Position numbers and translations under genes: made by a program
Origin: a virus
Strand: one strand, 5' to 3'
DNA: 20,177 nt
IMG/VR virus record: IMGVR_UViG_3300010885_050112
Coordinates: 1 to 20,177 of that record
Shown: positions 13,369 through 20,177 of the stretch, in pieces
Numbering within the stretch: position 1 is the first letter of the stretch
How the letters are laid out: each line of letters starts with the position of its first letter
The notes under the pieces: generated by a model
Told to the model about the DNA's origin: nothing
Seen by the model: the letters and a program-made list of their open reading frames with translations, nothing else
Database searches by the model: none

Positions 13369-13916
13369 TGGCTGAATACAAGTACGTATATGGCAGAGGT
13401 CGAACATCGTTTGATTTACCAGAGTCTGATATTCGTTATGCAATAGAGAACACCAAATCTAATGCAGAAGCGGCCCGATTCCTTAAGGTATCATATCCAA
13501 CGTATCGACGTTATGCTAAAATGTATACGGATAGAGAAACAGGTAAAACATTGTTTGATTTGCATTTGAACCAAGCAGGTCATGGCATATCCAAAGATGT
13601 TATCAAAGCGGCGAGTGGTCCATACAACATCACCAACATACTTGAAGGCAAACATCCTAATTATCCAACATGGAAGCTACGCAATCGCTTGTTGGCTTTG
13701 GGCATAATGCAAGAAGAATGCGGATCGTGTGGATATGCGGAACGCAGAATAACTGATGATACAGTGCCATTGCTTTTGGATCATGTTGATGGAGATGAAA
13801 CCAATCATCGCATTGAAAATTTGCAAATGCTTTGTTTGAATTGTTATTATCAACAAACCGGCAATCCATTCAATCAAGACAAAGAAACGTTTTGGAATTA
13901 TAATTTGTTAGAGTGA
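13368..13916 (+). CDS. HNH-type protein with HTH domain, final His replaced by Tyr
   Basis: This 182-aa protein has an N-terminal helix-turn-helix-like part (SNAEAARFLKVSYPTYRRYAK, residues 31-51). The C-terminal half is a zinc-ribbon HNH: CGSC (Cys118, Cys121), LLLDHVDGDETNHRIENLQ (with His139 and Asn151) and CLNC (Cys156, Cys159). In the usual 'CPNCHSQT' ending the residue after the last Cys is His; here it is Tyr160. It may therefore be a weak or inactive nuclease or a DNA-binding protein. Such HTH-HNH proteins are common free-standing genes in T4-like phages. Coupled by TAATG to the upstream gene. Confidence 0.8.
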   Translation: MAEYKYVYGRGRTSFDLPESDIRYAIENTKSNAEAARFLKVSYPTYRRYAKMYTDRETGKTLFDLHLNQAGHGISKDVIKAASGPYNITNILEGKHPNYPTWKLRNRLLALGIMQEECGSCGYAERRITDDTVPLLLDHVDGDETNHRIENLQMLCLNCYYQQTGNPFNQDKETFWNYNLLE

Positions 13917-13924
13917 TATTTATT
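13916..13924 (+). promoter_or_regulatory. ATATTTATT motif, second copy of the 18-base junction repeat
   Basis: It begins in the TGA stop of the HNH gene. TGATATTTATTAATATGA at 13914-13931 is identical to the string at 11987-12004. In both cases the motif covers the stop of one gene and the start of the next. Confidence 0.4.
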
Positions 13925-13927
13925 AAT

Positions 13928-14680
13928 ATGATATCAATGAAACAATTAATAATTGAAGGGCGTTACGATAGCTTAGTTACTAAACTATCCAACAAGTTGC
14001 TGGAAGTTATCAAGAACAGTTATTCTGCAGTATCAGATCCTAAAGGTAAATTTGGAAAACAAAAAACATATTTCCGTAAAGGTGAAAAACTCACGTACAT
14101 CGAAACGGAAAAATATCGTCCTACATATTGGGAAGAAGTAAATGCACCTGATATTCCATTACAATTTTACTTGTCACTCAAAGTTCAATGGCAGGAAGGT
14201 TTGGGTACCATGATAACGGATGGTGGTGCATACAATGACAGCAAAAAAGTTACTAATGCCGAAGAACCACCGTTAATTGAATTTTTGTTTGAATTAGATC
14301 CAGAACAGTATCCAAACATATTGTCACGAGTTGCAATGGAACTACGAGACATACTTCGTCATGAAATTGAACATTTAACGCAGTCAGGTTGGAACATCAA
14401 CATGGCAAAGTATTTGCGAGGCGATGAAGCACGTAGAAATAAAATTAATGCCAGAGAATTACCAGTATACAAATACTACACGTTGCCAAAAGAAATTCCA
14501 GCAATGATACAAGGTTTGTATATGCGTGCCAAAAAATCAAAACAACCATTCAAAGATGTAGTAAATGCAAATTTGCAACGTGGTGTTGATAACGGCGTAA
14601 TATCAGCTGAGGATAAAGAAACAATAATCAAAACTTGGAGAAAGTATCTCCCTAAATTAGGTATTCAGCAGGAGTTGTAA
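13928..14680 (+). CDS. HExxH metallopeptidase-like phage protein
   Basis: This 250-aa protein contains LRDILRHEIEHLTQSGW, with HEIEH at residues 145-149, the zinc-binding HExxH signature of metallopeptidases. The N-terminus MISMKQLIIEGRYDSL looks like a T4-type capsid-targeting leader, being ten residues ending in IIE. The start at 13928 is taken by analogy with 12001, since both ATGs lie in the same repeat; 13937 and GTG 13913 are alternatives. A third zinc ligand is not clearly seen. It could be a protease packaged in the head or a structural protein that kept the motif. The stop overlaps the next ATG (TAATG). Confidence 0.65.
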   Translation: MISMKQLIIEGRYDSLVTKLSNKLLEVIKNSYSAVSDPKGKFGKQKTYFRKGEKLTYIETEKYRPTYWEEVNAPDIPLQFYLSLKVQWQEGLGTMITDGGAYNDSKKVTNAEEPPLIEFLFELDPEQYPNILSRVAMELRDILRHEIEHLTQSGWNINMAKYLRGDEARRNKINARELPVYKYYTLPKEIPAMIQGLYMRAKKSKQPFKDVVNANLQRGVDNGVISAEDKETIIKTWRKYLPKLGIQQEL

Positions 14681-15117
14681 TGAATTATATTGATGAAGCT
14701 TGTTGGGATGGTTACCAACAATACGGAATGAAAATGAAGAACGGAAAACAAGTTCCAAACTGCGTTCCGATAAAAGAAGCGGCAGGTTATTGTTCTGCGT
14801 GTTTGATTGAAGCCATAAAGTCGGCAGATGCTAATCCAGAATACATCACCGTTATGCAACCAGGACTCAATGAAGCTGAGTATCATGGAAAAGAAGTACA
14901 ACTAGGTAAACCATTTTACACACCTGACGGACCAAAGAAACGGTCTGTATACGTTAAGAATGCAAAAGGCAATGTTGTTAAGGTTAATTTTGGTGACCCT
15001 AACATGAGAATAAAGAAATCAATTCCAGCACGTAGGCGTTCTTACAGAGCAAGACATCATTGTGAAAATCCAGGACCGAAATGGAAGGCCAATTACTGGT
15101 CATGTAAAGCATGGTAA
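14680..15117 (+). CDS. 145-aa phage protein with conserved basic, Cys-containing C-terminus
   Basis: The N-terminal half has DGYQQYGMKMKNGKQVPNC. The C-terminal half contains KEVQLGKPFYTPDGPKK, VYVKNAKGNVVKVNFGDP and RARHHCENPGPKWKANYW (116-133). The latter blocks are familiar from many T4-like phage proteins, where they often form a C-terminal module, but I cannot name a proven role. Cys and His spacing near the end could bind metal. It starts with an SD-like CAGGAG seven bases upstream and overlaps the previous stop by one base. The gene is complete, so the following homing endonuclease has not broken it. Confidence 0.7.
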   Translation: MNYIDEACWDGYQQYGMKMKNGKQVPNCVPIKEAAGYCSACLIEAIKSADANPEYITVMQPGLNEAEYHGKEVQLGKPFYTPDGPKKRSVYVKNAKGNVVKVNFGDPNMRIKKSIPARRRSYRARHHCENPGPKWKANYWSCKAW

Positions 15118-15121
15118 TGTT

Positions 15122-15754
15122 ATGTATTACGTATATCTTTTAATAAACCCAGTAACTAATCAACCGTTTTATTGCGGAAAAGGAAAAGGCGATCGTTGGA
15201 AATCGCATTTGGGATATTGGTCTGGTAATGGTAAAAATAACAGATGCGAAAATAAAATAAAATCTTTAAGATCACAAGGAATTGAACCAACTGTACGATT
15301 TTTAGTTGAAAATATAGAAGATGAAAATGAAGCGTATGAAATTGAAGAAAAATACATACGTGAAAATTTTGAACATTTAGTTAATTTAAAAATTGAAGCA
15401 AGGCCGCCTTCAAATAAAGGAAAGACTCCATGGAATTCTGGAAAGAAGATGCCTGCAGGCTTTTCTGAAAATCAAAGTAGGCGACTTAAAGAAGAATATA
15501 CGACAAAAAAACGAATACATTGGTCTAAAAAACTTTCTCAACAAGACAAAGTGGAATTTTACAGTAAAATGTCAAAATCAAGACTTGATTATACATCAAA
15601 AAATAAAACAAAAATATACTGCGTAGAACTACAAAAAGAATTTGAATCACAAACTGAAGCAGCTATTCAATTGAATATTCGACAAGGTGATATATCAAAT
15701 GTATTAAGGGGTAGACAAAAAACTACAAAAGGATATACGTTCATATATATTTAA
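15122..15754 (+). CDS. GIY-YIG homing endonuclease
   Basis: From ATG 15122 (GTTATG context) this is 210 aa. The GIY-YIG domain is seen as YVYLL (3-7) and FYCGKGKGDRWKSHL (16-30), with Arg25 and a later Glu in YEIEEKYI as likely catalytic residues. The C-terminal part has PSNKGKTPWNSGKKMP (NUMOD3-like) and a final IYCVELQKEFESQTEAA ... DISNVLRGRQKTTKGYTF (NUMOD1-like) DNA-binding section. This is the domain order of phage free-standing homing endonucleases. The gene is visibly more AT-rich than its flanks, as expected for a mobile gene. An in-frame ATG at 15062 is rejected because it lies inside the upstream gene. Confidence 0.85.
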   Translation: MYYVYLLINPVTNQPFYCGKGKGDRWKSHLGYWSGNGKNNRCENKIKSLRSQGIEPTVRFLVENIEDENEAYEIEEKYIRENFEHLVNLKIEARPPSNKGKTPWNSGKKMPAGFSENQSRRLKEEYTTKKRIHWSKKLSQQDKVEFYSKMSKSRLDYTSKNKTKIYCVELQKEFESQTEAAIQLNIRQGDISNVLRGRQKTTKGYTFIYI

Positions 15755-15933: not shown

Positions 15934-15968
15934 GGTTGGATCTGACTCATTTATTTCTTATATTTATA
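15934..15968 (+). promoter_or_regulatory. Sigma70-like promoter (TTGGAT-N17-TATATT), copy 1 of a 35-nt box
   Basis: TTGGAT is at 15936-15941 and TATATT at 15959-15964 with a 17-base spacer. The box continues into TATA to form ATATTTATA. The whole 35-nt box matches 17213-17247 at 31 positions. ATG 15987 lies 22 bases after the -10. Confidence 0.75.
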
Positions 15969-15977
15969 GTATAAATA
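15961..15977 (+). promoter_or_regulatory. Perfect palindrome TATTTATA-G-TATAAATA
   Basis: The 8-base arms are exact reverse complements around one G. The right arm TATAAATA equals the T4 late promoter consensus. It overlaps the -10 and the predicted transcription start of the AAA+ gene, so it could be an operator or a second promoter. Confidence 0.45.
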
Positions 15978-15986
15978 AAATGAGTT

Positions 15987-17129
15987 ATGAAAGAAACAAA
16001 AAAGTATGGTACCGTTATCAACGGACGAGTTATTGATGTAAAGACAGGTGCAGACATTACGGATATGTTCCGACAAGTAATGATTGACCACGCAATCCGA
16101 GAAAATCAAGGTCTTGTGTATGATTTAGAAACAGATAGAGCAAGACGCATTGACATGGATGAATTGCCAGATCATGGCACAGAAGTTAAAAAACCAGCTA
16201 TGACAACAGCAGATCCAATATTGTCGCTTATTCATAAAGCGTCAGAAATCAAACCAGCAGACTTGGAAATGTCTGACATTAAATGGAAATACCTAGTTCG
16301 TTCAGCAGTTCGTGGTAAAAATATCATGATGGTTGGACCTGCAGGTTGCGGTAAGACGGCCGCTGCAAAGGCACTGCCTGTTGCTACCAATCGTCCATTC
16401 TTTTATTTTAACTTGGGTGCAACTCAAGATCCTAGAGCAACCCTTATTGGTAACACTCACTTCAAGGATGGAGAAACTACATTTGACGAATCTGCTTTCG
16501 TAAAAGCAATTCAAACACCAGATGCGGTTATCCTTATGGATGAGTTATCCAGAGCGCATCCTGAGGCTTGGAACATATTGATGACGGTGCTTGACGAAGG
16601 TCAACGCTATCTTCGAATTGATGAAGATGTAAATGCACCAACCATCCATGTTGCTCCGGGCGTATCATTTATTGCCACAGCAAACATCGGTACGGAATAT
16701 ACATCCACTCGGGTATTGGACCGTGCATTGATGGATCGTTTCGAAATCATTGAAGTTGATATCCTTTCCTTGGATCGCGAAGAAGCATTGTTGAAATTCA
16801 AGTTCGGTAAACAAATAACCAACTCATTGATCCATGCGGTAGCAGACATTGCAGATTCCACTCGCAAAGAATGGCGTTCGGAAGAAGGTAAATTGACTAC
16901 GATGATATCCACTCGTATGACGGTTAGAGTGTGCGAATTGTTAGCAGATGGTTTCACATTGCAAGAAGCTGCAGAAGTTGCAATTCTTCCTTTCTTTGAA
17001 GCGGCAGGTGGTGCGGATTCAGAAAGAACCTTTGTTAAGCAAATCATCCAAAAGCACATGGAAACTGAGAAACAAGACATCTTCAACACCAATGCGGAAT
17101 CTGCAGAGTCAGATGCATTACCGTTCTAA
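15987..17129 (+). CDS. cobS: CobS-like / CbbQ-type AAA+ ATPase
   Basis: This 380-aa MoxR-clade AAA+ protein has Walker A GPAGCGKT (117-124), Walker B VILMDE (181-186), sensor 1 ATAN (230-233), and Arg246 and Arg251 as likely finger residues (RALMDRF). Residues 1-90 are a less conserved N-terminal part. Relatives (CobS, CbbQ, NirQ/NorQ) are hexameric ATPases that work with a VWA-domain partner, and such a partner is the next gene. CobS homologues are known in T4-like phages, where they are annotated as cobaltochelatase subunits, but their true role there is uncertain; no other cobalamin gene is seen here. The symbol marks similarity only. It has its own promoter and a terminator-like hairpin after it. 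Confidence 0.82.
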   Translation: MKETKKYGTVINGRVIDVKTGADITDMFRQVMIDHAIRENQGLVYDLETDRARRIDMDELPDHGTEVKKPAMTTADPILSLIHKASEIKPADLEMSDIKWKYLVRSAVRGKNIMMVGPAGCGKTAAAKALPVATNRPFFYFNLGATQDPRATLIGNTHFKDGETTFDESAFVKAIQTPDAVILMDELSRAHPEAWNILMTVLDEGQRYLRIDEDVNAPTIHVAPGVSFIATANIGTEYTSTRVLDRALMDRFEIIEVDILSLDREEALLKFKFGKQITNSLIHAVADIADSTRKEWRSEEGKLTTMISTRMTVRVCELLADGFTLQEAAEVAILPFFEAAGGADSERTFVKQIIQKHMETEKQDIFNTNAESAESDALPF

Positions 17130-17142
17130 TTTTTCATAGCTC

Positions 17143-17206
17143 AAAAAAGAAACAGTTACGGCAAAAATCACCATTCGTTAATCAGCGTGATCTGTTTCTT
17201 TTTTTT
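17143..17206 (+). terminator. Terminator-like hairpin with long apical region
   Basis: The left arm AAAAAAGAAACAG (17143-17155) is the exact reverse complement of CTGTTTCTTTTTT (17192-17204), and the run of Ts extends to 17206. Inside, ATCAC (17167-17171) can pair with GTGAT (17187-17191), stacking on the outer stem. The structure lies between the AAA+ gene stop and the promoter of the VWA gene, a sensible place for Rho-independent termination. It may also be a stable small RNA. Confidence 0.6.
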
Positions 17207-17212
17207 GATTTC

Positions 17213-17247
17213 GGTTGGATCATACTGAATTATTTCTTATATTTATA
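17213..17247 (+). promoter_or_regulatory. Sigma70-like promoter (TTGGAT-N17-TATATT), copy 2 of a 35-nt box
   Basis: TTGGAT is at 17215-17220 and TATATT at 17238-17243 with a 17-base spacer, and the box ends in ATATTTATA. It is the near-twin of 15934-15968 and lies directly downstream of the terminator-like hairpin. AAAAAAGG (a weak Shine-Dalgarno site) and ATG 17258 follow. Confidence 0.75.
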
Positions 17248-17257
17248 AAAAAGGCAT

Positions 17258-19416
17258 ATGAAGAAACATAAAGCAAAAAACCGTTACGATTACGCATCCC
17301 GCTTTTGGTTAGGATCGGATTTTGATACCGACTTTAAACGCAAAGATGGTGTTGATTATACCAAATTGGCTGCAGCACAACGCGCCATTGGTAACTTTGT
17401 TAACATCGTTACGGGTAAACAAATTCCAGTTATATTTCAAAGCAATGACCAAAGCTATACCAATGGAGAACGTGTTGTTATTGGTACTAAATTAGACAGC
17501 AAAGAATTTGATCCTGCAGTAGGTTTAGCATTGCATGAAGGATCTCACATTGCCTTTACGGACTTTGAAATGTTCAAACCTCAAAATGGAGGTTACGCAC
17601 ACCATATATCCAACACGAAAATGGCTAACATAGTGCGGATGAATGGTTATGATCCGGATATGTCCATGACAGAAAGAGATTTCTTTCGCATCAAAGATTT
17701 GTTGAATTGGATTGAAGATCGTCGCATTGATTATATCATATATACCACTGCCCCAGGGTATCGTATGTATTATGAGTCAATGTATAACAAATTCTTCAAT
17801 GACAAAGTTATTGACAAAGCACTTCGAAGCAATGCTAAAACTTCAGAGACTTGGGATGATTACATGTTCCATATCATTAACTTTACCAATCCGAACCGCA
17901 GACTGAATGCATTGGCTCATTTGCGCGATATTTGGAATGTTATTGATTTGAAAAACATTAATCGTTTACAAAATACCATGGATGCTTTGTTGCTTTCCTG
18001 TCAAGTTTGGAAAATCATTGAAACTGCAACTATCCAAGAAAAACAAGACGAATTGGATGAAGTACGAACGGCATTCCAACAAGGTGGTATGATGGATCCA
18101 ACTCCCAACGATTCCGAAGATGGAGATGGTGCATCTGGTTCTATTAATGCAAACGTTCAAAGCGATTCAATCGAATCAGACGAAGAAACAGATCACGAAT
18201 CAGACGAAGACGCGGATGGTGAAGATTCAAAAGATGACTCGGAAGTACCAAGTATGGGCGATGCTGACATGGATGATGAAGATGATGACCTTATTGAATT
18301 GACTCAAAAAGAATTGGATCAATTGCAAAAGGCAATTGCCGCACAAAAGAAATTCGTTGAAGGCAACACAAAGAAAAGTGGACGATTGACCAAGACACAG
18401 TCCCGATTAGTCAAAGCAATACGCGAGTCTGGAACTGAGACGCGTCAAGTATATACAGATCAATCCGGCACAATGTCTCCGATTGAAACGGTTGTTATTA
18501 AAAAATTGACTCCGGCTATTATAGATTCCATGCCTGAATTGTTTGAATCGTATGCCTCAGAATATCTTACCGGTCAGCGTAACTTAACTGATAGCAATTC
18601 TTATACGGGTCGTAGAATACATGAAAATGAAACTGCGGTGCAACGTGGATTGGTCTTAGGACGCCAATTGGGTAATCGTTTGCAACTTAGAAATGCAGAC
18701 AAATCATTGAAATCAACTCGTTTGCAATCTGGTAAGATTGACCGCAGACTGATATCGCAATTAGGATATGACAATGCAAATGTTTTCCATCGCATCGTTA
18801 CGGATCGATTCAAAAACTATTTCATACATATTTCAATTGATGCATCAGGATCTATGTCAAGTGGTGAGAAGTTTCAAAATGCTATAACAAGTGCAGTAGC
18901 AATCGCACAGGCAGCATCCATGACAACCGGTATTCGGGTGCAAATATCATTACGTGGAACGGAACGCTTAGGGGGTGATACGGAACGTTGTGTTACTATG
19001 TATGTGTATGATTCGGCAAAAGACAAAATGAATAAGATTAAAACTTATTTTAAATATTTGTCAACGTTTGGTTGTACTCCAGAAGGATTGGCATTTAAAA
19101 GTATCGAATCGGATTTGATTAAAGATGCTAAAGGAGATGAATGTATCTTCATTAACTATTCCGATGGTGAGCCAACAGATGTAGCCGGAACGGCTCGTAG
19201 TTACAATGGAGTTGATTTTACCAAACGCGCCATAATGAATATGCGAAGCAACAACATCAATGTTATTAGTTACTTCATAAGCGCCGGAGGTGTATATGAG
19301 AGTACCAGAACTAATTTTTGCACGATGTATGGTCAAGACGCATCATTCATTGATCCAAAAAATGTATTGCAAGTTGCAAAAACAATGAATAAGAAATTCT
19401 TAGAAATAGCATCATA

Positions 19417-19417
<1 letters not shown>
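17258..19417 (+). CDS. CobT-like protein: metallopeptidase-like domain, acidic linker, VWA domain
   Basis: This 719-aa protein has three parts. Near the N-terminus LALHEGSHIAFTDF gives an HExxH motif (HEGSH, 93-97), and NWIEDRRIDY (150-159) supplies the downstream acidic zinc ligand typical of peptidase-like domains linked to VWA proteins. Residues about 285-346 are a highly acidic Asp/Glu/Ser linker as in CobT. The C-terminal VWA domain has an intact start of the MIDAS motif DASGSMS (528-534). VWA partners of MoxR/CobS ATPases bind metal or clients and are remodelled by the ATPase. Its position after the AAA+ gene with a matching promoter supports one complex. Similarity to CobT is clear in layout; cobalt chelation is not shown. 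Confidence 0.82.

Positions 19418-20177
<760 letters not shown>

Follow-up and report, generated by a model that had tools for sequence, protein, structure and literature searches.

A phage gene pair labelled 'cobS/cobT' looks like an ATP-driven protein-remodelling machine with metal-protease signature residues in its second protein

Introduction

A gene pair of the cobS/cobT type belongs to the core of marine T4-like cyanophages and is usually counted as vitamin-B12 auxiliary, and many surveys list cobS among viral B12 genes. Two published readings of this phage pair, as B12 auxiliary genes and as a MoxR-vWA-metallopeptidase machine, conflict with each other. According to Liu et al. (2021; PMC8651126), the pair represents CobST, which borrows the CobN of the host, and cobT was 'mistakenly annotated as a peptidase'. 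In group 2.2 jumbo phages, Iyer et al. (2021; PMC7824862) described a MoxR-vWA chaperone pair with a metallopeptidase domain at the N-terminus of the vWA protein, and they proposed that it helps to assemble virions and processes structural proteins. The architecture is thus already known from this one earlier prediction for giant/jumbo phages; no experimental test of the phage MoxR-vWA-metallopeptidase design was found in the literature. For NorQD, cryo-EM revealed a finger of the VWA protein in the AAA+ pore, and the VWA domain was seen to rotate relative to the N-domain, with the linker being stretched (PMC13036017). If it is true that the phage pair is a protease or remodeller, claims on viral B12 genes need revising. 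The question is testable in a laboratory strain, as close homologues are found in IncA/C plasmids and in PhiR41_1, a phage-plasmid of E. coli K-12 with 98.7% identity to the homologue of pSTEC409_1.

Results

The HExxH-VWA protein and its AAA+ partner

The window analyzed here is a whole virus record of 20,177 bases. In it, a CobS/NorQ-type AAA+ gene adjoins an HExxH-VWA gene on the upstream side, and GroEL starts at position 19992. The following features were assigned to the HExxH-VWA gene:

17258..19417, + strand: HExxH-acidic linker-VWA protein, 719 aa (ORF translation)
17291..18085, + strand: N-terminal metallopeptidase-like helical domain, residues 12-276 (AlphaFold2 model, BFVD matches)
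17534..17548, + strand: HEGSH, residues 93-97, with candidate Zn ligands H93 and H97 and candidate base E94, in a confident helix (invariant in 86/86)
17705..17731, + strand: NWIEDRRID, residues 150-158, with E153 or D154 as candidate third ligand (N150, E153, D154 and D158 invariant in 86/86)
18086..18292, + strand: acidic disordered linker, residues 277-345 (42% D+E, pLDDT <50)
18305..18697, + strand: helices and a beta hairpin (strands 394-399 and 408-414) preceding the VWA core (predicted secondary structure)
18815..19414, + strand: VWA domain with complete MIDAS formed by D528, S530, S532, T607, and D636 (Foldseek, conservation)

The first-pass annotation, which was made from the sequence alone, had placed HEGSH and NWIEDRRID at the N-terminus and DASGSMS at the C-terminus of this ORF and had seen an acidic linker between the HExxH and VWA domains. 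These domain calls were correct, the linker (residues 277-345) being composed of 42% D+E and 1% K+R. HEGSH is the sole HExxH motif of the protein; in 20,000 composition shuffles, any HExxH appeared in 161 cases (<1%) and an HExxH followed by N..ED.R.D in none. D154-x3-D158 is spaced like the thermolysin-type ExxxD motif. DASGSMS comprises residues 528-534 and, together with T607 and D636, completes the MIDAS pattern DxSxS-T-D.

The features of the AAA+ gene are:

15987..17129, + strand: AAA+ ATPase of the CobS/NorQ/CbbQ/GvpN type, MoxR class, 380 aa (Pfam, PHROG, conserved residues)
16335..16358, + strand: Walker A motif GPAGCGKT, residues 117-124 (AAA+ homologue alignment)
16539..16544, + strand: acidic pair of Walker B, D185-E186 (AAA+ homologue alignment)

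The protein matched Pfam AAA_5 (E 5e-20) and CbbQ_C (24.0 bits at a cut-off of 20.6), which bears out the MoxR-type partner proposed on first reading, and phrog_249 'porphyrin biosynthesis' (1e-30). Residues G117, G120, G122, K123, D185, E186, N233, R251, R293, and R310 were invariant among 18 homologues including cellular CobS. An AAA+ gene was located directly upstream of the VWA gene in 59 of 83 loci. GroEL followed within ≤1 kb downstream of the VWA gene in 46 of these loci of the window lineage.

Comparison with described systems

The jumbo-phage pair of Iyer et al. (2021; ASV44729.1/ASV44728.2) can be likened to the window pair by description: it has the same three parts, is phage-borne and received the same reading of the N-domain, whereas the window module comes from an aquatic metagenome lineage and adjoins GroEL. 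Of the features of this type, the adjacent MoxR-class AAA+ gene and the vWA domain with MIDAS are both present in the window pair. In the case of the zincin-like N-domain, the motif is invariant but the fold matches to solved peptidases are weak, all having E >1. As for the hallmarks of zincins and gluzincins, HExxH is invariant in the relatives except for that of phage nickie, and the downstream residues E153, D154, and D158 are invariant.

The 'peptidase' (T4-GC 146) and cobS (T4-GC 150) genes of cyanophages, present in 463 phage records, have HExxH, N..ED.R, linker, VWA domain and an adjacent CobS-like ATPase as in the window. They differ in that the kinship is at profile level only, the peptidase gene precedes cobS, and the site lies between gp46 and gp45. 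NorQ/NorD and likewise CbbQ/CbbO, RavA/ViaA, and Rea1 have in common with the window pair the VWA fold, MIDAS, disordered linker and a MoxR-class ATPase, and the window VWA domain shows the features of NorQD-type MoxR co-chaperones, i.e., the DxSxS-T-D MIDAS and a NorD-like fold. NorD, however, lacks HExxH, and its client is nitric oxide reductase. A NorD-like protein from pSymA was considered as an HExxH relative and rejected, since it also lacks the motif.

CobS/CobT have the ATPase class and the layout of N-domain, acidic linker and VWA in common with the window pair, and by eye the HDxxxH...E.AR.E...PG of CobT resembles the HExxH...ED.R.D...PG of the phage proteins. CobT differs in lacking HExxH, in an N-domain profile match that is not significant, and in its partner CobN, which was not found in 15 phage records. 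The putative metallopeptidase-VWA proteins of PF13203/PF09967 (DUF2201) also have an HExxH domain followed by VWA, with an AAA+ gene before them in some loci, but the window protein had neither a Pfam match nor an N-domain profile match to them, including DUF2201_N (PF13203).

Predicted structure

The full-length model was confident outside the N-terminus, the linker, and residues 478-517, with pLDDT <50 for linker residues 277-345. In a Foldseek search with the whole protein, the best PDB match was the NorD VWA domain of the NorQ-NorD complex (9qh6, E 3e-7), followed by Rea1/MDN1-MIDAS, and the matches were confined to the VWA domain. The isolated N-domain was modelled by AlphaFold2 with a pLDDT of 90.3 and a pTM of 0.84, both motifs lying in confident helices. 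Against the PDB, Foldseek gave no significant match for the isolated N-domain. Among its 50 listed weak matches, 23 were HExxH zincins (ArdC, ACE/ACE2, M4 family), all with E >1 and with ACE2 being over-represented in the PDB. Against predicted viral proteins (BFVD), the N-domain matched phage 'CobT/VWFA' proteins with a best E of 4e-6.

Conservation of the motifs and spread of the module

IMG/VR contains at least 547 stretches coding for relatives of the window VWA protein. An alignment of 86 sequences showed H93, E94, H97, N150, E153, D154, and D158 to be invariant, and the MIDAS DxSxS-T-D was invariant wherever the alignment covered the VWA domain. Most relatives were retrieved with two conserved sequences, ALHE and N..ED..I, which contain part of the motif, so that the invariance of H93, E94, E153, and D154 is in part a product of ascertainment; H97 and D158 lie outside the retrieval patterns and are free of this bias. 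The first-pass annotation had staked its reading on zinc ligands that are conserved in relatives and close together in a model. With respect to the first half, the candidate ligands were strictly conserved (86/86). For the cyanophage 'peptidases', a test set was fetched with unrelated peptides and without use of the motif, and HEVGH and N..EDAR.E were invariant in 81/81.

The HExxH...ED pattern was also found in 'CobT' of Ochrobactrum phage OC, in Bacteroides phage BS162P1, in a Rhizobium phage, in SSU5 and SSU5-like phage-plasmids, and in IncA/C plasmids. Across five lineages (23 sequences), only 11 positions were near-invariant, namely D..G...HE..H, N..ED.R, and PG, a pattern that resembles an active site. 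N-domain profiles linked the window family to the Bacteroides phage (98.6%) and to the cyanophages (74%), the cyanophages to the Ochrobactrum phage (97%), and IncA/C to single lineages (91-96%). A scan of bacterial and archaeal genomes yielded four matches of the window subfamily in 84,980 species, which makes this subfamily essentially viral. The HExxH-VWA module is real and conserved.

Two natural variants depart from this pattern. In 'CobT' of Pseudomonas phage nickie (locus L195, 4974-7058), SEISK replaces HExxH and ES replaces ED, and the phage retains this gene and its cobS partner despite the loss of both metal motifs. Thermus P23-45 has an AAA+/VWA pair without HExxH. These variants suggest that catalysis is dispensable in some lineages.

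A putative ATP-driven remodelling machine

The domain order, the VWA fold, the distribution of the module, and the strict conservation of the candidate metal-site residues were established computationally in this study. With moderate confidence, we propose that the pair forms an ATP-driven MoxR AAA+/VWA remodelling machine whose N-domain most likely cuts a client protein; zinc binding, cleavage, ring assembly, and the identity of the client are the parts of this mechanism that we infer. By analogy to NorQD, a hexamer of the ATPase encoded at 15987 would enclose the VWA protein in the pore at its centre, with the beta hairpin 394-414 of the latter as a candidate for the pore-inserting 'finger', and the MIDAS metal would dock an acidic residue of the client. 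ATP hydrolysis would then turn the VWA domain against the N-domain via the flexible acidic linker, and this rotation could strain or open the client and offer a segment of it to the N-domain. As the gluzincin-like signature, HExxH with an E-D motif further downstream, is complete, the intact site suggests that the N-domain cuts the client.

Consistent with such a machine are the invariance of the motifs in 86 relatives and 81/81 cyanophage homologues, the closest similarity of the VWA domain to NorD/Rea1, the AAA+ gene of the CbbQ/NorQ class directly upstream in 59/83 loci, the independent proposal of the same architecture for jumbo phages, and the absence of CobN from 15 phage records. Points that count against it are the lack of a significant PDB match for the N-domain, the motif-less proteins of nickie and Thermus P23-45, and the partial ascertainment of some of the residues.

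The natural variants without the metal site make a non-catalytic remodeller the main rival. The pair would then remodel clients in a chaperone-like MoxR/VWA manner, and its HExxH domain would not cleave but bind metal or serve only as a specificity and lever arm. It would fit with this that the N-domains of NorD and CobT lack HExxH, that NorD acts as a metal-insertion remodeller (PMC13036017), that the nickie gene was kept after motif loss, and that the window lineage pairs the module with GroEL. However, E94 and both histidines are invariant in two independent and diverse families, and a purely structural metal site needs no catalytic glutamate; we therefore regard a non-cleaving function as rather unlikely.

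The pair is probably not a cobaltochelatase

A CobST motor that borrows the CobN of the host and boosts cobalamin production has already been proposed in print (Liu et al., 2021; PMC8651126), and the CobS-like ATPase (phrog_249), the CobT-like order of domain, acidic linker and VWA, and a weak match of the VWA protein to CobT_C (PF11775; E 0.009) speak for it. This match, however, reached 16.1 bits at a cut-off of 21, and a search with PF06213 gave a best E of 0.12, below the gathering score. With hhalign, the N-domain had no significant match to cellular CobT or DUF2201_N, also when a merged five-lineage profile was used; the highest-ranking local match to CobT had an E of 0.06, is located on the E-D motif, and is a lead only. 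Five cellular CobT proteins were compared at the site of the phage HExxH, where they carry HDxxxH or lack a motif of this kind.

CobN (PF02514) was detected in 0/15 phage records, some of which are fragmentary; this search covered phage records and not the hosts. PF02514 was likewise not found in E. coli and Bacteroides control genomes, whereas the GroEL control found all 14 genomes, and in the E. coli genome lacking PF02514 the GroEL and RNR controls were detected. Homologues of the pair nevertheless occur in E. coli. The doubt on the cobaltochelatase label that the first-pass annotation had raised is thus strengthened by CobT scores below cut-off, by a cellular CobT without HExxH, by the absence of CobN from 15 phage records, and by homologues in E. 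coli, whose control genome lacks PF02514. We conclude that the AAA+/VWA pair is probably not a cobaltochelatase, the CobST function being very unlikely, and that the phage HExxH-VWA genes are probably misannotated in many records. As far as the protein is concerned, the evidence favours the reading of Iyer et al. (2021) over that of Liu et al. (2021).

Genomic context

In the cyanophages, Ochrobactrum phage, SSU5, nickie, and the Rhizobium phage, the module has replication/recombination genes as neighbours and not structural genes; across the other phages and IncA/C, these neighbours include gp46/gp45, ligase, dnaE, and ssb-bet-exonuclease. In IncA/C-type plasmids (loci L190, 4941-6737, and L192, 7363-9159), a HEAAH...EDCRIE-VWA protein is encoded beside ssb, bet, and exonuclease, and >800 plasmid records match this version at ≥80% coverage. 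Within E. coli, the IncA/C version is present in 85 of 5,426 genomes, and the phage-plasmid version adjoins its own AAA+ gene. Iyer et al. (2021) saw in the pair an assembly factor of virions that processes structural proteins, and the published analogy to the MoxR-vWA pair required for the Acidianus two-tailed virus tail (PMC7824862) as well as the GroEL neighbour of the window lineage could be cited for it. Such a role is improbable, because IncA/C conjugative plasmids carry the same module and make no virions, and because a virion-only role fails to cover all homologues, given the replication/recombination neighbours outside the window lineage.

In extension of the proposed remodelling protease, we tentatively suggest, as a conjecture that we ourselves hold to be doubtful, that the 'cobS/cobT' pair of marine T4-like cyanophages and its relatives in the SSU5-like phage-plasmids and IncA/C plasmids could be a single, widely distributed metalloprotease of mobile elements, driven by an AAA+ ATPase and acting on DNA-bound replication/recombination complexes. 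Cellular CobT would then be a derived form with a dead protease site.

The first base of the ORF 19417-19950 coincides with the final base of the stop codon of the VWA gene, so that the ORF is adjacent to this gene. It was found in only 16/83 relatives, mostly as the next gene behind the VWA gene, and had no match in Pfam or the PDB. Its invariant residues G.DH...NEHKKL...KT appear PD-(D/E)xK-nuclease-like by eye only. The first-pass annotation had named its product as a possible target of the machine. Of that reading, the metallopeptidase-like N-domain, the VWA domain, the MoxR-type ATPase, and the doubt on the cobaltochelatase stood; the target did not, as occurrence in 16/83 relatives rules out a conserved partner or obligate target and makes the ORF an optional neighbour.

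Further genes were noted in the surroundings. A second, unrelated HExxH protein (RHEIEHLTQSG), encoded at 13913-14680, is conserved near the module in 52 related loci and had no Pfam or PHROG match. A GIY-YIG homing-endonuclease-like gene (GIY-YIG plus I-HmuI-type NUMOD) at 15062-15754 is located just upstream of the AAA+ gene; a homologue was found in 0/85 related loci, and the gene is therefore probably a recent insertion. In alphaproteobacteria (loci L098, L101, and L102), a J-domain (DnaJ-like) gene and a bolA gene are located near cellular cobS/cobT.

Intergenic elements

Three elements flank the two gene starts in the window:

15934..15970, + strand: promoter-like element upstream of the AAA+ gene, GGTTGGA...TATTTCTTATATTTATA (repetition)
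17143..17206, + strand: terminator-like hairpin between the genes, AAAAAGAAACAG...CTGTTTCTTTTTTTT (fold z -2.7)
17213..17243, + strand: second promoter-like copy, upstream of the HExxH-VWA gene (repetition)

Both gene starts have the element GGTTGGATC..ACT...TATTTCTTATATTTATA in common, and its repetition alone suggests a promoter-like function for 15934-15970 and 17213-17243. A consensus scan did not detect the hairpin 17143-17206; T-tailed hairpins were present at the equivalent intergenic site in several relatives. Given the repeated upstream element and the T-tailed hairpin between the AAA+ and VWA genes, the two appear to be transcribed separately yet under common regulation. In locus L003, a similar promoter-like motif occurred six times versus 0.11 expected, including positions just upstream of both genes.
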